From Dermabacteraceae bacterium TAE3-ERU27 (lineage in GTDB: Bacteria; Actinomycetota; Actinomycetes; Actinomycetales; Dermabacteraceae): DNA of 64,000 nt. This document shows positions 54,050 to 63,998 of the stretch, piece after piece. The notes under the pieces were generated by a model that made no database searches, was not told where the DNA came from, and worked only from the letters and a program-made list of their open reading frames with translations. The DNA is taken from NCBI GenBank assembly GCA_019218415.1, contig JAHUUL010000001.1:1-64000 (forward strand), written 5' to 3'. Each line of letters starts with the position of its first letter. Position 1 is the stretch's first letter. Made by a program: the position numbers and the translations under genes.

Positions 54050-55030
54050 CTAGTCCTCCCGCTGGGCGGAATCGATGACGGCCTGCACGTCGTCCCAGGA
54101 CTTCATCGATTTAATGTCGAAGGGGAACAACTTTCCCTCTGGCTGCCAAACCATATTTGGCATCAAAGTACCCTCAACTATTTTATTCCACGCGTCCACG
54201 CCTTGCTCTAACCCCAGGTCACCATAAGCTCGCCAATGAACGCCTTCATCCTCAGGTACGCTTGCAGCTTCGAGAGCCGCTGCTCCTTGTACCAATTTTC
54301 TAGTAAGTTGCTCGGGGCTGCGCCAAGGGATATGAAGTATACGAATGTCCACCCCTTCAGAACCAGGCCTAATAACCCAATGATTACCAGCACAGACACG
54401 AAGCAGGGGGAAAGGCTTAAAAGCGACTTTCCTATGCACACTTTCTAAAGTTCGAAACGCAGTGACATCCACCCCCCACCGATCCCCAGCAAGGGACATT
54501 GGATACAAGTTAGCAACTTTCGCCCGCTGAATAGGAAACCTGGACTTCTTCAAGCTTTCCGCTAGGGGGCTGTGCGCCCCAAACCATAGCTCATCTGCAT
54601 CGAAGGGAATGATCCACCTCGCACCAAGGCTAGTCACAAGCCTGGACAAAAAAGTTATTTTCTCAGCCTGCTCATGCGCAAATAGGGAATCCTCTCCGAG
54701 GAAAACTTTTCCTGTATGGAAAAAAGATTTTACAACATCGGCGCTGTTATCTGTCGACCCATTATCCATGACAAGTATCGCATCCACCCCTTGAGAAAGC
54801 AGGTTCTGGATCGACAGCCCAATCACATCGGCTTCGTTTTTTATTACGGAAATAGCCCACACCCCTCCCTTAACCCTCGGCAAATCAGGTATATGCATGC
54901 ACTTTTTTACATCCCTAGCGACACTCCTATTTTCAAAATCAAGACTCAGCACTCGAAGGCTCAACTTAAGCCCAGAAGCAACTAGCTGCAAAAAAGACTT
55001 TCCCTGAGAGTCATGTATTTTTTTTGGCAC
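54050..55030 (-). CDS. GT2-like glycosyltransferase (low GC)
   Basis: The 326-residue protein belongs to the glycosyl transferase 2-4 type: WAISVIKNEADVIGLSIQNLLSQGVDAILVMDNGSTDNSADV is a typical nucleotide-sugar domain, and IIPFDADELWFG holds the metal-binding acidic motif. No membrane helix is present. The GTG start at 55030 has TAATAT 6 nt upstream. Base composition is clearly lower in GC than the genes before it, which suggests recent acquisition as part of a surface-glycan locus. It probably modifies a polysaccharide. Confidence 0.82.
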   Translation of the reverse strand: MPKKIHDSQGKSFLQLVASGLKLSLRVLSLDFENRSVARDVKKCMHIPDLPRVKGGVWAISVIKNEADVIGLSIQNLLSQGVDAILVMDNGSTDNSADVVKSFFHTGKVFLGEDSLFAHEQAEKITFLSRLVTSLGARWIIPFDADELWFGAHSPLAESLKKSRFPIQRAKVANLYPMSLAGDRWGVDVTAFRTLESVHRKVAFKPFPLLRVCAGNHWVIRPGSEGVDIRILHIPWRSPEQLTRKLVQGAAALEAASVPEDEGVHWRAYGDLGLEQGVDAWNKIVEGTLMPNMVWQPEGKLFPFDIKSMKSWDDVQAVIDSAQRED

Positions 55031-55042: not shown

Positions 55043-55085
55043 TGTGCAGAAGCTTTTGTTTGCAACACTAAGCAGAGAGACTCTT

Positions 55086-55631
55086 ATGTGTTTTAAGATT
55101 CTTGCAGTATGCACAGGCAATGTTTGCCGCTCCCCTTTCGCGCACCTGCTGCTAGAAAAAAAACTCAGTGGTGTCCCCGGCGTGAAAGTTTCTTCTGCCG
55201 GCACCCTCGCCCTGGTGGGCCAGGGGGTAAACGAAATCATGCTGCCGGAATGCGCACGCTACGGGCTGGACCCAAGCGCCTTCCGTGCACGTAAGTTCAG
55301 TGCCCGAATAGGCAAAGAGGCCGACCTGATTCTTACCGCCACCTGGGAACAGCGGCAGCGCATTTTGGAAGACTGCCCCGAATACGCAGCAAAGCTCGGG
55401 GTCATCACGGGCGCCCAGTCCCTACCCGAAGCCGAACCATTCTCCCTGGCAAGCATGCGCGACTGGGTAAGAAGCCAAAAACAGCGCAGCGTCAGCGACG
55501 TCCCAGACCCCTACCAGAAGGGACCGGAAGTAGCCAAAGAGGCTGCGCACATAATCGACGAGAACCTGACCCTACTAGTGCAGTGGCTTACCGCACCGGG
55601 AAACGGCGGGCGCCGCAGACGCAGTTCCTAG
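55086..55631 (+). CDS. Low-molecular-weight protein-tyrosine phosphatase
   Basis: The 181-residue enzyme has Cys9-x5-Arg15-Ser (CTGNVCRSP) in the P-loop and a DPY general-acid motif near the C-terminus (DVPDPYQKGP). LMW-PTPs in surface-polysaccharide loci (Wzb-like) dephosphorylate the BY-kinase that controls chain length. No BY-kinase is visible in this window. ATG 55086 is preceded by GAGAGA. A longer frame to 55044 has no support. Its stop shares CTAG with the HprK-like gene on the other strand. Confidence 0.92.
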   Translation: MCFKILAVCTGNVCRSPFAHLLLEKKLSGVPGVKVSSAGTLALVGQGVNEIMLPECARYGLDPSAFRARKFSARIGKEADLILTATWEQRQRILEDCPEYAAKLGVITGAQSLPEAEPFSLASMRDWVRSQKQRSVSDVPDPYQKGPEVAKEAAHIIDENLTLLVQWLTAPGNGGRRRRSS

Positions 55632-56701
55632 CCTCGCAGCAGCTCGTTTTCGCGCAGGCGCTCGCAAGCCTGCGCGACCAATGCGGAAGCCTCCGGGTGC
55701 GGCCCGATCAACTCCACCACCTTCTTCTCCAATTCCGGCAGGGACGCCGCCCTGGAGGGATCAAGCAGGCTCCAAACTAGCCCGGTGAGCATATCCAACC
55801 TGTACACCATGTTGTCGGCCAAAATCACCAGGCAGTCATCGGTTTCCAGGACATCCTGCACCGGGGAGGCCAGCAGGTTTCCCTGAGACAGATCTAGCAT
55901 CGCTGAATCGTAAGGCGCAGTCTCCACGCGGTCCCAGTTTTTTTCGCGGGGAGCCTGCGCAACCGCCATTATGCGCTCGTAGCAGTCCGAAAATTCTTCG
56001 TAGTGCACAACGGTAAGCCCGCCCACGGCGTCTAGCACGCTAGCAAGCTTTGCTAGCCCGCCACCCGGCATATCGGAAAGACCCGATGTCATGGGGGCGA
56101 CCATTCCCAGGCTCTCGCTTACCCCCGGGTGTTCCAAGCGAATATCGCTCTTATCGCGCACCAGCTGCACTATCTTGCCAAGCGGAACCGGCCCGTCACT
56201 CGGGCTCATATCCAGCTCTGCAACGGAGAGATCTACCTTGACCCGGGGAGATTCAGAAACCACCCGCGAAAGCGGTTTCGGATACGGGTAAACCAGCAGT
56301 GTATCCGTATCTATATAAACCGTTTCGTCGGTTATATAACGTCCCCCCGGCTGCTGTGCGCAATAGACGGAAGCAGTCGACTTCCCCGTGCCTGACGGTG
56401 CAACAAACACTACTGCACGGCCAGCCAACTCCACGGCGGAAGCGTGCAGCATCAGGAAAGAACCGCCTCTGTGATGCTCAATCAGCTCACGCGTTACCAG
56501 ACAAGACACGGCATAGGCAGCCTCGGCTTCACTCCGCCCGGCAATCACCTGTTCAGGAATATCCACGGTGACAGCGGGTTCAGAAGAAAGACCCGACTCA
56601 CTTACGTGTGCCCATAAAGAGGCGAGCAGCTCCGCCACAGCTTCATTTTCAATCCGGATGGCCACGGGAGTGTCCACTACACGGATACGCAGGATCTTCA
56701 T
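55628..56701 (-). CDS. HprK-like kinase fused to a PqqD-like domain
   Basis: In this 357-residue protein, residues about 80-280 are an HPr-kinase-like P-loop ATPase: Walker A APSGTGKST (101-109), DETVYID (125-131) and YPKPLS (140-145) recall the HprK-related kinases of RiPP and EPS systems. Residues about 285-355 (DDCLVILADNMVYRLDMLTGLVWSLLDPS) look like a PqqD-type peptide-binding module. HprK relatives phosphorylate a serine in a partner protein or peptide. Here the target is unknown. The start overlaps the upstream gene as ATGA. No HPr gene or precursor peptide is visible nearby. It lies last in the manA-pqqD-mauE/trx-hprK operon. Confidence 0.8.
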   Translation of the reverse strand: MKILRIRVVDTPVAIRIENEAVAELLASLWAHVSESGLSSEPAVTVDIPEQVIAGRSEAEAAYAVSCLVTRELIEHHRGGSFLMLHASAVELAGRAVVFVAPSGTGKSTASVYCAQQPGGRYITDETVYIDTDTLLVYPYPKPLSRVVSESPRVKVDLSVAELDMSPSDGPVPLGKIVQLVRDKSDIRLEHPGVSESLGMVAPMTSGLSDMPGGGLAKLASVLDAVGGLTVVHYEEFSDCYERIMAVAQAPREKNWDRVETAPYDSAMLDLSQGNLLASPVQDVLETDDCLVILADNMVYRLDMLTGLVWSLLDPSRAASLPELEKKVVELIGPHPEASALVAQACERLRENELLRG

Positions 56702-57723
56702 CCGCGATCTCCCTCCCCGTCAACCACAGGAATATCCATTCCGCGCAGTTCCGCCTCGATGTCGGCAACCAGATTCATCACGCCGGACACGCCCGGCGTC
56801 GGGCCTGCCGCGAGCATGCCGTCCGCGCCCAACAAGATTGCGGTGGGAACACTCGTCACGCGCAGGGTCGGTAGCACCAGACGATCCACGTCCTGCAGGC
56901 CGTGCGGCCCCCATTCTGGACGCCGCTCCAGAAACTCGCTCGGTTCCAGGGAAGAAATAAAGGAGACGTCCACCTGCGGCAGGCGCTTCCTGATCTCCGG
57001 GATTCGTTCACCGATTTTTATACAGCCTGCGCAAGACGGAGAAAGCGCCAACAGCAGCTGCGGTCGCTTGCTTGAGAGCTCAACCAGGTCGGTCACGGTG
57101 CCGTCGGCCTTCTTCACCCGCAGCGGCGGAGTGAAGGTGCGGACGTAGGGTAAAAGTCCATCGTCCTCAACTTCATCCGCGTAGGGCAGCTGAACCTGCG
57201 TCACTTCTTTAACAGTTTCCGGGGTGCGCAAGGCGCTAAACCAGCCGGTGCCGAACGCAAGTATGGCAGCCAGCACGGCTGCCGGATTGCTAAACCAGAG
57301 GGCAGGTGGTTCGTTCACCGCAGTACCCCAGAAAGCACAGACCGCCAGGATCAATAGCAGCAGGTTTCGGATAACCGTGCCCAGGGTGATGACGGTGGTT
57401 TCCGCACTGCCGAAGCAAGCGCAGGTAACTTCTTCCGGCATCAGATATGAGCGGGCTACGAAGAACAGATAAACAAGAGTCAGTAGAACCGCCGCGAGCG
57501 CGACCGGCAGTCGCACCAGGCCGGGTAAGGCCACCAGACCAATCGCTATCGCTATTTCCACGAAAGGATGCACGCTGCGCAGAAAACGCACGTTAAATAG
57601 CGCAGGAACCCGGAACTGGCTCCACTCACGAGCCACGTCGGCATCCTTGTCCTGCAGCTTTCCCGCAGCAGCGATCAGCAGAACAAGCGCTAGAACAACG
57701 GCGGAAACCTGAGTAAGTATCAC
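56698..57723 (-). CDS. MauE-like membrane protein fused to a thioredoxin-like domain
   Basis: The 341-residue protein begins with a MauE/DoxX-type four- or five-helix domain (about 1-165) with the redox pair Cys101-Ala-Cys103 (TCACFG) and ends in a thioredoxin-fold domain (about 195-325) with Cys231-x-x-Cys234 (SPSCAGCIKIG). Normally MauE and a thioredoxin-like MauD are separate proteins; here they are joined, so electrons could pass from the membrane Cys pair to the CxxC domain on the outer face. The GTG start lies 4 bases after the PqqD-like stop. It is probably a disulfide or thiol carrier for a secreted substrate. Confidence 0.85.
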   Translation of the reverse strand: MILTQVSAVVLALVLLIAAAGKLQDKDADVAREWSQFRVPALFNVRFLRSVHPFVEIAIAIGLVALPGLVRLPVALAAVLLTLVYLFFVARSYLMPEEVTCACFGSAETTVITLGTVIRNLLLLILAVCAFWGTAVNEPPALWFSNPAAVLAAILAFGTGWFSALRTPETVKEVTQVQLPYADEVEDDGLLPYVRTFTPPLRVKKADGTVTDLVELSSKRPQLLLALSPSCAGCIKIGERIPEIRKRLPQVDVSFISSLEPSEFLERRPEWGPHGLQDVDRLVLPTLRVTSVPTAILLGADGMLAAGPTPGVSGVMNLVADIEAELRGMDIPVVDGEGDRG

Positions 57724-57727
57724 TTTT

Positions 57728-58030
57728 TCATTCTACTTTCCCGGCAGAAATCTCATCTGTCACTACGGCACCCAACTCACGCAGCACCTCTAGCTCGCGC
57801 AGCAGTATTGCTCTAGCGTCGGCCGGTGCCTCCGGGGCGTCAGCCAGGATCCGATCCAGCAGGGAATCCACGCTTAACCACTCGTTGCGGGTATCGCGTA
57901 GCGTCTCAAGCCAAAGCACCCCCGGCCCCTGCACGCGAAAAGCCGGACCGGAGGGCAACATCCCAAAGGCGTAGCCCTCCCCGTCCTCGGCGTAGGTAGC
58001 TAACTCAGCTAACCGCACACGGACCGTCAT
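57728..58030 (-). CDS. PqqD-like protein (small)
   Basis: The 100-residue protein has the PqqD pattern of a beta-hairpin start (GYAFGMLPSGPAFRVQGPGVLWLETL) followed by helices (SVDSLLDRI, AILLRELEVLRELGAVV). Such proteins are peptide-binding chaperones (RRE fold) in RiPP maturation, or the PqqD_rel_X proteins of the HPr-rel-A system. It starts inside manA's end (ATGA overlap). Here it is found without the usual radical-SAM or cyclase enzymes. Confidence 0.75.
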   Translation of the reverse strand: MTVRVRLAELATYAEDGEGYAFGMLPSGPAFRVQGPGVLWLETLRDTRNEWLSVDSLLDRILADAPEAPADARAILLRELEVLRELGAVVTDEISAGKVE

Positions 58031-59238
58031 GCCACGCTCGCCTGCACCAAACGCCCGCTACCACCGACGGTTACCGAGCCGTCCTCGGTGGAAACCAATA
58101 CCGCTTGTCCAGAACGCAACCGGCGGCGGCCAAGATCGGTCTGTACCATCACTTCCCCGTCCAGCACCAACAAAATACGCGCACCGCTACCGGGGATTCT
58201 TTCGTGCGGCTGGAACATGCCGGGCGAATCGGCCAGGCTGGTCACGGACAGCTCGAAATCGTCAACGGGAACGTAGAAAACCTCGGTCGCGTCAGTCACC
58301 TTTTCCGGCGCGATACGCACGGGCGGAGCCGCTACGCAGCTCACGCAGCGCAGCATTTCCTCGGTATCCACGCGCTTCTTGGTAAGCCCCGCACGCAGCA
58401 CGTTATCGGAATTGGCCATGATCTCTACCCCCAGGCCCGACAGGTAACAGTGCACCGCCCCGGCGGGCACAAACATCGCCTCGCCCGGGTTGAGCGTTAC
58501 CGGGTTAAGCAGCAAAGCAGCCAAAACACCCGTGTCCCCCGGATAGTGCGCATGCAAAGAGCCAACCACCGCATCTATCCGCGGGGACGGAGAATTACCG
58601 GATACCAAACGTTCCGCACAGGCCGCGGCCACCTGCTCCACTACGTTTTGCGCATCAGCCAGGTGTGGGGAGAACAAAGCACGGAAAGCGGCCCGCATCC
58701 CGTTCGCATTCGGTTGTTCGATAAGCAAAGCATGCAGTCTGTCGGTCAGCTCGGTTCCGAGTCCTTCCAGAATCGAAGCCGCACGGCGCGGCGTGCGGAA
58801 GCCGCTGAGTGCCTCAAAGCGGGTCAGTGCGTAAACCATCTCCGGCTTGTGGTTAGCATCGTGGTAGTTCCGGCCGTCCGCGGAAAGCGGCACCCCGGCC
58901 GCTTCTTCGGCATCGAAAGACTCGCGCGCCAGCTCCAAGGAAGGATGTACCTGCAGGGAGAGCGGCTGCGCCGGTGCGATCATCTTCAGCAGGTACGGGA
59001 GGGTGGCTCCAAACCTGCGCAGGGAGGCATCTCCCAAAATCCTGCGCGGGCGATCCGCGATCATACGATCCAGCGGCTGCCAGCCAGAGTCGGTCTCTAC
59101 CTGCGCAGGGGCAATCGGGTGCGCGCCAAACCAAAGCTCAGCGAAGGGAGCACCATCGCTTTCCCTCCCCAAGAACTCGGGAAGCGCGGACGGCGATCCC
59201 CAGGCATAGGACTGGCGCTGTCCCTCAATACTCCACAT
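58027..59238 (-). CDS. manA: Mannose-6-phosphate isomerase, class I
   Basis: The 403-residue zinc enzyme interconverts mannose 6-phosphate and fructose 6-phosphate, leading to GDP-mannose for glycans. SYAWGSPSALPEFLG, AELWFGAHPIAP, LQVHPS and NYHDANHKPEMVYAL carry the metal site (Gln, His, Glu, His). LNPGEAMFVPAGAVHCYLSG completes it. GGAAGGAG precedes the ATG. It is the first gene of the operon that continues into pqqD-like, MauE-thioredoxin and HprK-like genes, tying that module to surface-sugar metabolism. Confidence 0.94.
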   Translation of the reverse strand: MWSIEGQRQSYAWGSPSALPEFLGRESDGAPFAELWFGAHPIAPAQVETDSGWQPLDRMIADRPRRILGDASLRRFGATLPYLLKMIAPAQPLSLQVHPSLELARESFDAEEAAGVPLSADGRNYHDANHKPEMVYALTRFEALSGFRTPRRAASILEGLGTELTDRLHALLIEQPNANGMRAAFRALFSPHLADAQNVVEQVAAACAERLVSGNSPSPRIDAVVGSLHAHYPGDTGVLAALLLNPVTLNPGEAMFVPAGAVHCYLSGLGVEIMANSDNVLRAGLTKKRVDTEEMLRCVSCVAAPPVRIAPEKVTDATEVFYVPVDDFELSVTSLADSPGMFQPHERIPGSGARILLVLDGEVMVQTDLGRRRLRSGQAVLVSTEDGSVTVGGSGRLVQASVA

Positions 59239-59269
59239 GCTTTTTTAGCTCCTTCCGGCGGCACGGCTG

Positions 59270-59275
59270 TACCAT
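59270..59275 (+). promoter_or_regulatory. Putative -10 box of the nucleotidyltransferase gene
   Basis: TACCAT lies 6 nt before the ATG at 59282. Confidence 0.5.
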
Positions 59276-59281
59276 GCCAAC

Positions 59282-60148
59282 ATGGATTCGATGACTATTG
59301 GTGTGCCTGCGCAACTGCAGCTCTGCCATGCCGCGCTGACGCACTGTGCAAATCTTTCCGGCGCACGCGTGCTGCACATCAAGGGAATTACCCTGTCGCC
59401 GCAGCTTTCCGCAGGGCGCCCCGGTTCTACCGACAGCGACGTGCTCGTCGCCCCGGAGGATCTCCCGGCATACCTGCGAACCCTGGAAGAAAACGGCTGG
59501 GAACTCTACACGCACTTTAAGCACGGATCCGTCTTCCAGCACGCCGCCACCTACTACCACCCGGTGTGGGGCACCGTGGATGTACACCGTTCCTTCCCCG
59601 GCATCGACAGGGACCCCGCGGCAACCTTTGCGGCACTCTGGCGCGATCGCGAAAAGGTCGAGCTTGGCGGCTGGGACTGCTACCGCCCCTCCCTCAACGG
59701 GCAGAGGCTGCTGCTGCTGGTCCACGCGGCCCGCGATCAGATGGGAAAGGCCGTGCACGACGTCCGAACCTGCTGGGAGGATCTGAACGATTCCGAGAGA
59801 GAACAGCTGCGCACTTTCGCTTCTTCCCTTGGTGGGGAGGTTGCGCTCGCGGCCGCCATTGGGCAGATCGAAACCGTGCGCGAAGAGCACGGCTACCGCC
59901 TGTGGAAAGCCGTTTCCGCGGGAGCCAATCCCACGGAGATTTGGATTGCCCGCCTTCAGGAAGCGCGAGGCACCAGAAACAAGGCCCGCATTTTTTGGCA
60001 GGCTCTGCACGTTAACCCTGACCATCTGCGTATCCGTTTGGGGCGGGTGCCAACAGAGGAGGATCTTCGCTACGAGCGCTGGGATCGCTGGCGCCGTGCC
60101 GCCCGTAATATCGGCGGGAAATTTCGCACCCTAATGACACACCGATGA
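59282..60148 (+). CDS. Nucleotidyltransferase family protein (NTP_transf_5-like)
   Basis: The 288-residue protein has the polymerase-beta-like core LHIKGITLSPQLS (Lys34-Gly35), then GSTDSDVLV with Asp51 and Asp53 as the metal-binding pair, and a third acidic residue in TVDVHR (Asp100). This family is encoded with HprK-like kinases and PqqD proteins in EPS and lasso-peptide clusters. The reaction is unproven (nucleotidyl transfer to a peptide or sugar). It is divergent from manA. Its last 137 bases overlap, on the other strand, the end of the VanZ-like gene. Confidence 0.78.
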   Translation: MDSMTIGVPAQLQLCHAALTHCANLSGARVLHIKGITLSPQLSAGRPGSTDSDVLVAPEDLPAYLRTLEENGWELYTHFKHGSVFQHAATYYHPVWGTVDVHRSFPGIDRDPAATFAALWRDREKVELGGWDCYRPSLNGQRLLLLVHAARDQMGKAVHDVRTCWEDLNDSEREQLRTFASSLGGEVALAAAIGQIETVREEHGYRLWKAVSAGANPTEIWIARLQEARGTRNKARIFWQALHVNPDHLRIRLGRVPTEEDLRYERWDRWRRAARNIGGKFRTLMTHR

Positions 60149-60511: not shown

Positions 60512-62023
60512 CTAGTAGGCCCCACGAGAGGAAACCATGGCATTAGCCGTCTGGGCAAGAATTCCCAGGTCACGCACGAACGACCAGTTATCAACATAGT
60601 AGAGGTCGAGGCGCACTGTCTCCTCCCAGGAAAGGTCGCTGCGCCCGCTCACCTGCCACAGGCCCGTCATACCCGGGCGTACCGAGAGACGGCGGCGCGC
60701 GATGTCGTCATAGAGCGCCACTTCTTTGGGGAGCGCCGGGCGCGGTCCGACCAGGCTCATTTCTCCGCGTAGCACATTAATCAGCTGCGGGAATTCATCC
60801 AGGCTGAAGCGGCGTAGGAATTTGCCGGCTTTGGTAATGCGCGGGTCATCGGCCATCTTGAACATGACCAGGTTGCCCTTGTCCTGCGCCTCCTTGGCCA
60901 GTTCAGCCAGGCGTTCTTCTGCATCGGGAACCATGGAGCGGAACTTGAAGCAGCCAAACTCTTCCCCGTCGCGTCCAACGCGGGTCTGCTTGAACAGCAC
61001 CGGGCCGCCGTCTCCCAGCTTGATGATCAGTGCAATCACCAGCAGCATCGGGGAAAGGACCAGCAGAATGCCGCTGGCGACCACCACGTCGAAGGCACGC
61101 TTGGTCCAGCGCCCCGCTTCGATGGTGCGCGGTAGTTCCAAGTGCATAAGCGGCAGGCCCGCAACGGGACGCAGCTCCACACGGTCGGAAGAAATCTCGG
61201 TCATCGCAGGCACGACGACCACATCAATGCCCTGATCTTCCAGTTCCCACGCGGTACGACGGAACGAGATGGTGGACTCCGTAGCACCCTCCGTGAAAAG
61301 CAGGATCTGCGGATCATAATCTGCCAGCGCCACGCTAAGCGAGTGTGCCGAGCCGAGGCACGGCACTCCGGCGAGGGCTTCACAACCTTCTGGGTCCTCT
61401 TCCGTAACGTAGGGATTGAGGTATCCGATTACCTCGTAGCCAAGCCAGTCGTTGCGCTGCAGGGTAAGAGCAATTTCTTTCACCGCCCCCGGTTCGCCGA
61501 CCAACATTACCCGGGAGAGCCCGCGTCCGGCACGGTGCATCCTGTGCAGGAAAGCCCTGGCACACAGGCGGACCAGCATCAGCGCAGGCGGCACGATGAT
61601 CAAAAGGGCGATATAGAAGGCACGCGAAAGCTCAAAGCTGGCCAGGTAACAGACAACCCCGATACCACCTCCCGCAAGCAGGGAGGCATTAAAAACAGAC
61701 CGGTAGATCTCGAATCCGTGTGCGAGCAGTTTTGCCGAATAGCCATCAAAAATGGATATCGCCACTACCCATACCACGCAGGTTAGAAGACCCACCTGGT
61801 ACAGAATCGCATTAAAGTTATCGCCCGCAACGAAAAAGGGAATGATTCTCCGCAGCCATATAGCAAGCCATGTAACTACCAGCAACACCACCACATCAGC
61901 CAGGACCAGCGCAGCACTGATCCCGGTTGTGCGCAACGGAAAACGCTGACGCAAGCTCTTGCGCCGCACCGCCAGCGCTCCATGCGCCAATGCGGCACCT
62001 GCGCGATCACCAGGCCCGTTCAC
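60512..62023 (-). CDS. Exopolysaccharide initiating sugar transferase (WbaP/WcaJ type)
   Basis: The 503-residue polyprenyl-phosphate hexose-1-phosphate transferase puts the first sugar on undecaprenyl phosphate. It has four N-terminal membrane helices, a CoA-binding-like Rossmann middle part (VMLVGEPGAVKEIALTLQR) and the C-terminal catalytic domain (KRAFDVVVASGILLVLSPMLLVIALIIKL, KFRSM, RRFSLDEFPQLINVLRGEMSLVGPRPALP, RLSVRPGMTGLWQVSGRSDL). I prefer GTG 62023 because GGGGGAGG lies about 8 nt upstream; a TTG at 62041 is possible. It defines this region as a surface-polysaccharide locus. Confidence 0.93.
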   Translation of the reverse strand: MNGPGDRAGAALAHGALAVRRKSLRQRFPLRTTGISAALVLADVVVLLVVTWLAIWLRRIIPFFVAGDNFNAILYQVGLLTCVVWVVAISIFDGYSAKLLAHGFEIYRSVFNASLLAGGGIGVVCYLASFELSRAFYIALLIIVPPALMLVRLCARAFLHRMHRAGRGLSRVMLVGEPGAVKEIALTLQRNDWLGYEVIGYLNPYVTEEDPEGCEALAGVPCLGSAHSLSVALADYDPQILLFTEGATESTISFRRTAWELEDQGIDVVVVPAMTEISSDRVELRPVAGLPLMHLELPRTIEAGRWTKRAFDVVVASGILLVLSPMLLVIALIIKLGDGGPVLFKQTRVGRDGEEFGCFKFRSMVPDAEERLAELAKEAQDKGNLVMFKMADDPRITKAGKFLRRFSLDEFPQLINVLRGEMSLVGPRPALPKEVALYDDIARRRLSVRPGMTGLWQVSGRSDLSWEETVRLDLYYVDNWSFVRDLGILAQTANAMVSSRGAY

Positions 62024-62177
62024 TAGGGCAGCCTCCCCCAAAAAGTTCTTTAACAGCCGAGATTTTAGCTATTTTGTACAGCCTTCCTGTGGGTACTGTA
62101 ATCCGAAACGCCCTCTACAAATTAGAAAAATAAGATAATTGGCGCATTATCACAGCCGTCTCACAGGACCGCGTCAG

Positions 62178-63998
62178 CTAATCCAGCTTCCCAAGCGCCA
62201 CGAGCTGCGCAAACTTTTCGTTCGTCTTTTGCAGCTCACGGAAGGATCCCACCCCAGAGACCTTACCATTTTCCAGATAAACTACCTGGTCAACGTTCTT
62301 AACAGTGGACAACCTGTGGGCGACCACCACCACGGTTACATCTCCACCCAGAGCATCTATCGTGTCTGTAATTTTCTTCTCCGTCTCATTATCAAGCGCC
62401 GAAGTGGCTTCATCCAAGACAAGAAGAGACGGTTCACGATAAAGGGCACGCGCTATCCCTATCCGCTGCCGCTGACCACCCGATAGCCTACCGCCACGCT
62501 CTCCACACAACGTCTCCATCCCCTCAGGGAGATTGGAAATAAGATCCTTTAATTGTGCACGCTCAACCGTTGTGAGCAGTCTTTTCTCTTCAACGCAGCC
62601 TGAAGGCTTATCAAAAACTATATTTTGGAGCACCGATGCGTTAGAAACATAAACTTCCTGAGACACCATAGCAACATTTTCTTGCCACCCTCTCACGTCT
62701 GACGAAATGTCGTAGCCATCTACTAAAACTTTTCCAGATGTCGGAGACAGTAAACCTAAAATAATATCTACCAAAGTCGTCTTCCCCGCACCAGATCCGC
62801 CCACAAAAGCGACAGAAGATCCATAGGGGATATTTAGGCTAACCCCGTTCAAAACGTCACAATCTGATCCATTATATCTAAAATGGACATCTTCAAGGAC
62901 GATCTGATGTTTGTATCCCAACCTTTTTGAAAAACCCTCAGAAAGAATTGACCCCGCCTTAATAACCTTATTTTCTTGCGAGATTATATCCAAAGACTCA
63001 GACCCCAAGCGCACATTATTTATAGCGGATATAATCGCCGAAACATTTGGCAACAAACGGAACCCTGCCGCAACAAGTAGCGCCATTGTGCCAACAGCTT
63101 GCCCCTGGTCGCCAACAAGGAACATGTAGAGCAAAAGAATGCCTACTGCACTTATAAAAAGTATTTCTAAAAGAAATTTAGGGATACTGGTATAAAATTC
63201 TGCAGTCGCATTAGCAGCCGCATCCCTATTTGCAGCAATCCTGTATTTTTCTACAAAATACCCCTCTGTATGCCTGAGCGTTATCTCCTTATATCCAGCA
63301 AGCCCGTCAAAGGCCGCAACATAACCCTGTACCGAGGCCTCCATGATCTCTTTTCCAACCTTAAGGGTGCGAGGCTTGATAAAGCGCATGTAGAGAGTTG
63401 CGCCGAATGCGAAATAGAGCATAATGATCAGCGCTTGAAGGGGGATTGCGGCAAACAAAGCAACCAAAATGGAAAGGACTGTAAATGCCGATGCTATCAG
63501 GCTGATAAACCCGCCAACAACAGAGCCATAAACCCTGCTAACGGCATCATGTATTGTTCTAACCATTTCGGCAGTAGTCCTACCCCTGTAATCCTGCCAA
63601 GGAAGAGACATATACCCTTGCATCATCTGGACTTGCGTCGCAGCCCTTTCGGTAGATATAAATCTAGCCTTCCAAAAATTAAACCATATGGTACCAACAT
63701 CTTTTAGAATAAAGATGCCGACAACCAGGCAAACTAGTAGTACTCCAGTTCCCCTAGTATCACCAACCCCAAGGTAGGAAGTGAGCCTGTTTGCAAATCC
63801 AGGAAGGTTATTATTCCCCGCCGCCAAATCAACCAGAGGGAGAACCATAATTATCCCCACAGTTTCCATCACTCCGAAAATGACCGATAAAATCGCTATA
63901 AGAAGTATCCGAACTTTAACCCCTCTAGCCAAAAGGTCATTTAACTGAAGCAAAGCAGGAATTATGCCAGCCCCACCATCGGCGCGATTTTTAATCAT
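62178..63998 (-). CDS. ABC exporter, fused permease-ATPase (MsbA/PglK-like)
   Basis: The 606-residue protein has six membrane helices (about 1-320) and an ATP-binding domain: Walker A GGSGAGKTTL, signature LSGGQRQRIGIARAL, Walker B LLVLDEATSALD, H-loop VVAHRL. It is a half-transporter acting as a dimer to flip or export a lipid-linked glycan or a peptide. GC content is much lower than in most of the window. The start ATG lies 2 bases from the window edge, so an upstream start cannot be ruled out. It fits an EPS locus, but the associated PqqD/HprK genes leave a peptide substrate possible. Confidence 0.87.
   Translation of the reverse strand: MIKNRADGGAGIIPALLQLNDLLARGVKVRILLIAILSVIFGVMETVGIIMVLPLVDLAAGNNNLPGFANRLTSYLGVGDTRGTGVLLVCLVVGIFILKDVGTIWFNFWKARFISTERAATQVQMMQGYMSLPWQDYRGRTTAEMVRTIHDAVSRVYGSVVGGFISLIASAFTVLSILVALFAAIPLQALIIMLYFAFGATLYMRFIKPRTLKVGKEIMEASVQGYVAAFDGLAGYKEITLRHTEGYFVEKYRIAANRDAAANATAEFYTSIPKFLLEILFISAVGILLLYMFLVGDQGQAVGTMALLVAAGFRLLPNVSAIISAINNVRLGSESLDIISQENKVIKAGSILSEGFSKRLGYKHQIVLEDVHFRYNGSDCDVLNGVSLNIPYGSSVAFVGGSGAGKTTLVDIILGLLSPTSGKVLVDGYDISSDVRGWQENVAMVSQEVYVSNASVLQNIVFDKPSGCVEEKRLLTTVERAQLKDLISNLPEGMETLCGERGGRLSGGQRQRIGIARALYREPSLLVLDEATSALDNETEKKITDTIDALGGDVTVVVVAHRLSTVKNVDQVVYLENGKVSGVGSFRELQKTNEKFAQLVALGKLD

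Follow-up and report, generated by a model that had tools for sequence, protein, structure and literature searches.

A predicted protein-tagging cassette in an actinobacterial exopolysaccharide locus and its association with a class of Tat-type exported proteins

What is the substrate of an HprK-like kinase that carries its own PqqD-like domain and lies inside a polysaccharide locus? The question is raised by the first 64,000 nucleotides of contig JAHUUL010000001.1 of Dermabacteraceae bacterium TAE3-ERU27 (this whole stretch is hereafter called the window), where such a kinase belongs to a cassette with a second PqqD-like protein, a MauE-thioredoxin (MauE-Trx) protein, a mannose-6-phosphate isomerase and a PF14907 transferase, among exopolysaccharide (EPS) genes. 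We found that the kinase and the transferase co-occur with a class of exported proteins bearing a conserved signal of the twin-arginine translocation (Tat) type. On balance we give an even chance to the reading that this cassette supplies the enzymes of a predicted system for tagging proteins, with the Tat-exported proteins that bear this dedicated signal as its clients. In the literature searched, no role was found for HprK-PqqD kinases outside lasso clusters.

The contig that begins with the window is 822 kb long and belongs to an assembly of 2.0 Mb. A previous sequence-only reading of it had described a five-gene module in an EPS locus and looked to the Actinomycetaceae for comparison; that family has to be replaced, as the closest named relative is a Dermabacteraceae bacterium (MauE-Trx 93% identical). 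A scan for related loci gave one relative. All five open reading frames (ORFs) are present in the EPS locus, as follows.

55628..56701, minus strand: HprK/PEPCK-fold kinase with a C-terminal PqqD-like domain (P0001, 357 amino acids), from motifs, the AlphaFold 2 model and PDB matches
55631..55879, minus strand: PqqD-like domain of the kinase, residues ~275-357, from the pattern of alignment A2 and PF05402; boundary set by eye from secondary structure
56375..56401, minus strand: Walker A stretch APSGTGKST of the kinase, residues 101-109, computed position from the columns of A2
56698..57723, minus strand: MauE membrane domain (PF07291) and thioredoxin-like part with CAGC; the second half is a weak MauD match
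57728..58030, minus strand: stand-alone PqqD-like protein P0003, with PF05402 in aligned rows and none for P0003 itself
58027..59238, minus strand: ManA, class I mannose-6-phosphate isomerase (TIGR00218, 228.3 bits, over the cut-off)
59282..60148, plus strand: PF14907 (NTP_transf_5) transferase, from Pfam, alignment A4 and the nucleotidyltransferase fold of the AlphaFold 2 model

The junctions are also as that reading described them, with ATGA overlaps at manA/pqqD and mauE-trx/hprK, a 4-base gap from pqqD to mauE-trx, and the nucleotidyltransferase gene on the opposite strand to the other four. Pfam was run on ten proteins of 54-64 kb, and its scores bear out the proposed PF14907 (54.2 bits against a cut-off of 31.2) and MauE (PF07291, 60.1 bits against 27) assignments; the phosphomannose isomerase (PMI) type I catalytic domain of ManA was above its cut-off as well.

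What else is found near this kinase in related genomes? Among the neighbours are genes for Tat-type exported proteins with an unusually conserved signal, RRxxx(K/R)GAAW(S/A)xP...APAxAxS. A signal model, A1, was built from 18 segments taken near kinases, and with it six signals at E <= 1e-4 were found in the window's genome, on three contigs. Among 68 distinct non-seed signals, which were chosen by the model itself and hence favour its conserved columns, the twin Arg and both Pro are present in all 68, the Trp is found in 67 and the APAxAxS Ser in 61; six rows are cut before the Ser column, and in five of the six a Ser follows one residue later. The sequence features of Tat substrates are all there: RR in every non-seed row, a hydrophobic region and an AxA site. 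A control of 25 generic RR-type signals, small and noisy as it is, had a Ser at the matching place in three.

The client proteins themselves are exported proteins of about 160-600 amino acids, scattered over the genome, with up to ~10 per genome. Their mature parts are unlike one another. Eight clients had no shared NCBIfam family and only NCBIfam matches below the cut-offs, four clients run against Pfam gave no match at E 0.01, and the signal region was the only part common to the clients inspected by eye. Single loci can hold several of them: five signal-bearing genes stand in tandem downstream of the kinase in locus L048 (10846-14373), and seven, six clustered and one further away, lie downstream of it in L147 (9085-16260), in both cases with mature domains that are unlike by eye. 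The idea of a dedicated signal peptidase was set aside, as a signal-peptidase-I-like gene was found in L177 only, among the loci scanned by motif.

A separate observation concerns L057 (9262-10847, genome G068), where a divergent kinase-like gene stands beside a 120-amino-acid protein in which the signal takes a spaced form, SRRQALRAGAYVAGAAWVVP. Variants of this kind near kinase-like genes that the model missed (e.g. L057 10485-10847) were left out of all counts.

Do these signals follow the kinase from genome to genome? In 98 related genomes the kinase (E < 1e-10) was present in 23, and the signal (E <= 1e-4) was found in all 23 of these versus five of the other 75 (p = 7e-18); PF14907 was found in the same 23, with a weak match in G013 besides. 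At the phylum level only 4 of 396 genomes had the signal (best 19 candidates scored per genome), and thus the order level was used, with 297 genomes that overlap the set of 98 relatives. There the searches took the best 26 (A1), 6 (A2, the kinase alignment) and 8 (A4) candidates per genome, and for A2 and A1 the search of discordant genomes was repeated with as many as 150 candidates. Kinase (E < 1e-40) and signal (E <= 1e-4) were both present in 53 genomes, the kinase only in 5, the signal only in 5 and neither in 234 (Fisher p = 1e-46). When the 16 seed genomes were removed, the corresponding numbers were 37, 5, 5 and 234 (p = 3e-35). Within genera, the two also covary (stratified p = 7e-11, from the listed rows only). 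Since related genomes are not independent, these p-values overstate the association; its direction is clear.

The transferase follows the same pattern. Strong PF14907 matches were found in 52 of the 297 genomes, after two of 54 had been dropped (G518 as weak, G013 as a fragment), and kinase and signal were present in 52 of these 52; 18 of them had supplied rows to A4. By comparison, the signal was found in 6 of the 245 genomes without strong PF14907. Seen from the 58 kinase genomes, the signal was present in 52/52 with PF14907 versus 1/6 without; of the latter six, five belong to a genus in which a complete genome also occurs. In the five genomes with the kinase alone, no signal better than E 0.018 appeared in the fuller search. 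Weak signal matches (E 0.003-0.007 in G010, G023, G030 and G032) were excluded from the counts. Among ten genomes with weaker kinase matches (E 2e-17 to 9e-9), a counted signal was found only in G013, the kinase of which is fragmented.

Kinase and signal genes are also partly linked. Of the 53 double-positive genomes, 49 had listed positions, and in 22 of these 49 a signal gene lay no more than 10 kb from the kinase. Without the A1 seed genomes the proportion was 18/45, and outside the window's family 20/37. Chance linkage would be expected at a few per cent, given how few signal genes each genome of 2 to 5 Mb has; as A1 was seeded near kinases, some residual bias toward linked genes is included in these counts.

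What kind of enzymes are these? For the kinase, the HprK name of the sequence-only reading finds support in the predicted fold and in aligned rows; the PqqD name, for the tail of the kinase and for P0003, is more tentative, with matches in part of the aligned rows. The window's own proteins gave little by themselves: P0001 had no Pfam match at E 0.1, and P0003 had neither a PF05402 match nor an NCBIfam match at E 0.1. The best NCBIfam match of P0001 was TIGR04352, with 42.2 bits over 66 residues against a curated cut-off of 200, and the same model was matched by 19 of 20 aligned kinase rows at E <= 0.1. At E <= 1, Hpr_kinase_C was matched by 5 and PqqD PF05402 by 6 of these 20 rows, and PF05402 by 11 of 16 rows in the alignment of P0003. 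The Walker A, T-D-E and K-P-x-S motifs are nearly invariant in A2. The AlphaFold 2 model of the kinase, made from the 20-row alignment, has a mean predicted local distance difference test (pLDDT) score of 90.9 and a predicted template modelling score of 0.88. It resembles phosphoenolpyruvate carboxykinase (PEPCK) and HprK/P in a Foldseek search of the PDB; all 50 VIA rows were PEPCK entries, and HprK/P entries appear in the Foldseek list. The predicted fold of P0001 is thus that of an HprK/PEPCK-like P-loop kinase with Walker A and an acidic pair. In sequence searches of the PDB, the 60 chains listed for A2 were all P-loop proteins, mostly of the ATP-binding cassette (ABC) type; with A3, helicase chains (E 0.014) ranked above a chain of the PqqD family, 9x8z (E 0.02).

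PF14907 is listed as a nucleotidyltransferase family of uncharacterised function. In the 24-row alignment A4, 23 rows match its profile at E <= 0.001, and K34-G35, D51, D53, D100 and H102 are invariant (K-G, D-x-D and D-x-H). A PDB sequence search with A4 returned nothing at E 0.1. The AlphaFold 2 model (pLDDT 92.0) has a nucleotidyltransferase fold, closest in our comparisons to MenT1 (Z 14.3, root-mean-square deviation 3.0 over 171) and then to ANT(2'') (Z 11.9) and FKRP (Z 8.5), at identities of 10-15%, from which function is not transferable. FKRP is a phosphotransferase, and an FKRP entry with CDP-ribitol is among the structure matches.

Is the cassette a chance grouping? To the five genes, the following features of the window have to be added.

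54050..55030, minus strand: family 2 glycosyltransferase (PF13704) on the margin of the EPS locus
55086..55631, plus strand: low-molecular-weight tyrosine phosphatase, Wzb-like (PF01451); the ORF opens at 55044 and the start was set at 55086 by comparison with L034
60012..60509, minus strand: VanZ-like membrane protein (PF04892)
60512..62041, minus strand: WcaJ/WbaP-type initiating sugar-phosphate transferase (TIGR03025, 408.6 bits)
62178..63998, minus strand: ABC transporter resembling PglK/MsbA (both matches below cut-offs), by its sequence perhaps a lipid-linked glycan flippase

In 19 family genomes, counting that of the window, the 20 kb surrounding the kinase were read. WcaJ and VanZ are present in all 19 loci, PqqD and MauE-Trx in 18, ManA in 17 and the phosphatase in 16; PF14907 is present in 17, while G042 and G022 carry it 14-16 kb away on the same contig. 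The order WcaJ-VanZ-PF14907-ManA-PqqD-HprK is complete in 14 of the 19, and in the window MauE-Trx is placed between PqqD and HprK. In L036 and L037, ManA was masked by long antisense ORFs in the first NTP5 profile, and the A4 used for genome searches was built without these two loci. The genes therefore recur together in other genomes, as the earlier description required, which argues against chance grouping; its list of five proved too short, since the phosphatase, VanZ and WcaJ recur with them too. A decayed copy is seen in G013 (L166 6823-12343), in which kinase and phosphatase are fragmented and PF14907 is a fragment only; WcaJ, VanZ, ManA and MauE-Trx are retained, and the genome keeps a single signal gene.

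The sugar context also holds, with ManA for mannose metabolism, WcaJ as initiating transferase and the PglK/MsbA-like ABC transporter gene in the window. EPS-type genes extend to ~77.2 kb of the contig and were named by eye as glycosyltransferases, acyltransferase-like, NeuB-like, NeuA-like and Wzz-like; the Wzz-like protein was also matched by a custom profile. Outside the family, Wzz or WcaJ was found in 15 of 28 kinase loci, and ManA was not detected near the kinase in any of the 28.

Three further observations stand apart from this comparison. The 3' ends of vanZ and the PF14907 gene share 137 bases in a tail-to-tail overlap (window 60012-60148), and L034 and L035 show similar convergent overlaps of profile matches. 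The NeuB-like and NeuA-like proteins lie beyond the window (contig C1 71576-74653, by eye), and suggest a nonulosonic acid in the glycan. L155, L168 and L169 (G532, G584 and G659) have the kinase with no detected PF14907, Wzz or signal genes; their genomes are of the same genus as G062, which has a fuller set, and some neighbour genes are shared.

How might such a cassette work on such clients? We propose that the stand-alone and kinase-fused PqqD domains would bind the Tat signal peptide in the cytoplasm, in the way that recognition elements of ribosomally synthesized and post-translationally modified peptides (RiPPs) bind leaders. The HprK-fold kinase would then phosphorylate a Ser, most simply the conserved one just after the AxA signal-peptidase site. 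The PF14907 transferase would put a sugar (or a nucleotide) on the phosphate, comparable to the action reported for PsmN, presumably itself a PF14907 protein, on the phospho-Ser of pseudomycoidin. The folded, tagged protein would leave through Tat; tagging before export suits this pathway, because Tat transports folded proteins. Outside, the tag would mark the protein for, or join it to, the polysaccharide that the EPS genes around the cassette produce, and MauE-Trx would handle disulfides. The proposal builds on what the analysis shows, namely the protein families and folds, the recurrence of the cassette, the joint occurrence of kinase, PF14907 and signal, their partial linkage and the conservation of the signal; the split of the kinases from the lasso type of L058 and the decayed copy in G013 also count in its favour. 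A link to EPS is plausible from gene context, which is firm in the window's family and patchy outside it.

The sequence-only reading had likewise suggested a system that marks a small protein or peptide and ties it to a surface glycan. The marking part gains from the co-occurrence of kinase, PF14907 and the Tat-protein class, and the glycan part from the presence of WcaJ/VanZ by the cassette in 19/19 family loci. A small precursor as the target does not stand: none was recognised beside the cassette in the ORF lists of the window or the genes called to 100 kb, and the clients are larger exported proteins scattered over the genome.

Several points weigh against the tagging proposal. The six signal genes of the window's genome, of which one is a short ORF of 59 amino acids, all lie outside the cassette. 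Linkage is absent in 27 of the 49 double-positive genomes; within the window's family it is found in 2 of 12 order-set genomes, and 8 of the 19 family loci hold a signal gene in the 20-kb stretch that was read. The signal is carried by G004, G011, G021, G043 and G528 with no credible kinase in the fuller search, G696 has kinase and signal with no detected PF14907, and the absence of PF14907 from six kinase genomes rests on the best 8 candidates per genome. The limits of the signal counts, i.e. selection of the 68 rows by the model and the small, noisy control, belong here as well, and the conserved Ser may suit signal peptidase only. As for the chemistry, the review literature allows that PsmN may be nucleotidylating, and an indirect route too (PMC9266682, PMC8498205). 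The last step, attachment to polysaccharide, is the weakest, because no other cassette gene was detected in 10 of the 28 kinase loci outside the family and neither Wzz nor WcaJ in 13 of them.

Which other explanations could account for the same data? The best-placed rival keeps the clients and moves the site: the Tat signal would still be read by the enzymes, with the modification falling in the mature domain, and the Ser conserved near the cleavage site would be there for signal peptidase alone. The co-occurrence fits this equally well, and PadeK acts on a C-terminal Ser of its peptide according to two reviews (PMC9266682, PMC8498205). We nevertheless hold it to be unlikely, as the eight clients have no shared NCBIfam family, the four tested had no Pfam match and, by eye, nothing beyond the signal region is common to the clients.

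A rather small chance is given to the view that the kinase and PF14907 act on a polysaccharide intermediate or on the Wzz/bacterial tyrosine kinase machinery, with the Tat proteins as binders of that glycan that are gained and lost together with it. The WcaJ, VanZ and phosphatase neighbours in the family and the 15 of 28 outside loci with Wzz or WcaJ speak for it. So does ManA, the sole PMI match in the window's genome; being the only one, its place in the cassette may be plain EPS sugar supply. What this view leaves unexplained is the RR/W/P/P signal on unlike mature domains, and also the PqqD domains. Moreover, L049 has the kinase together with PF14907 and a signal gene, yet no EPS gene was detected in its 20 kb.

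An ordinary lasso or small RiPP cluster, with precursor and cyclase elsewhere in the genome, is very improbable, even though L058 (9095-13467), a lasso-type locus from the same taxonomic order, has this toolkit of PqqD, HprK-like kinase and PF14907 (by Pfam) together with Asn synthase and a lasso-like precursor identified by eye. No such genes were recognised among those called in 60-100 kb, the rest of the genome not having been searched for a cyclase; the kinases are split from the L058 type with 100/100 support, and the co-occurrence of kinase and signal also speaks against it. Finally, it is hardly credible that the kinase serves metabolic regulation, controlling sugar use by phosphorylation of HPr or some other protein of the cytoplasm. 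The HprK-like fold and adjoining ManA that suggest it are set against the PqqD fusion, the PF14907 partner, the tie to exported proteins and the lack of a ManA match close to the kinase in those loci that were read outside the family.

Returning to protein tagging, the association with the signal class looks strong and, within the searches made, undescribed, and the enzymes look to be of a known kind in a new use. With clients that can be named and counted, and with a motif for their signal, the question of the substrate can be tested directly. If the proposal is true, signal peptides would carry a chemical-tagging instruction besides a route, and actinobacteria could covalently tie secreted proteins to their sugar coat. 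Its furthest extension, in which the Tat signal serves as a RiPP-type leader and an N-terminal Ser phosphosugar anchors many unrelated surface proteins to exopolysaccharide, is tentative, and we lean against it.

Compared with known systems, the nearest are lasso peptides. PsmK phosphorylates the C-terminal Ser of the lasso peptide pseudomycoidin, and PsmN, annotated as a nucleotidyltransferase, adds one or two hexoses to the phospho-Ser, as two reviews report (PMC9266682, PMC8498205). PsmK and PsmN pair an HprK-like kinase with a nucleotidyltransferase-type partner, as here, and PadeK, ThcoK and SyanK are further kinases of this group. The pseudomycoidin system, however, makes a lasso peptide, whereas the predicted clients here are exported proteins of Tat type, and the window's family adds an EPS context. 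By eye, no lasso cyclase, B protease or precursor was recognised in the ORFs of 48-64 kb or the genes to 100 kb, so that the absence of cyclase and protease already remarked on by the sequence-only reading persists in the extended sequence. The kinases of L058, L170 and L171 split from 54 other rows with 100/100 support; the toolkit is therefore shared, and its use looks different. The lasso reading was rejected on these grounds.

DUF2063-type RiPP recognition elements (RREs) with DUF2282 precursors involve Sec, not Tat as here, and the passage on Sec signal peptides describes no specific signal motif, whereas here the signal itself is conserved (PMC12710340); a kinase is not mentioned in the main text of that paper. 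Another RRE paper (PMC7470986) makes no mention of kinase, polysaccharide or signal terms.

HPr-rel-A combines an HprK-related kinase with a PqqD-like partner, as here, and no paper under its system names was found in the literature searched. The toolkit likeness drawn earlier to lasso clusters is borne out in L058; HPr-rel-A membership was rejected, with 42.2 of 200 bits for P0001 on TIGR04352 by the NCBI cut-off. TIGR04353 we take to be the model of the HPr-rel-A PqqD partner.

In PEP-CTERM/exosortase systems, a dedicated signal is placed on many unrelated surface proteins, and an enzyme set that often stands by EPS genes goes with it. The likeness is one of concept only, as the signal here is N-terminal and Tat-type. 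If the furthest extension of the tagging proposal is true, an N-terminal phosphosugar route would be the counterpart of C-terminal sorting signals in actinobacteria.

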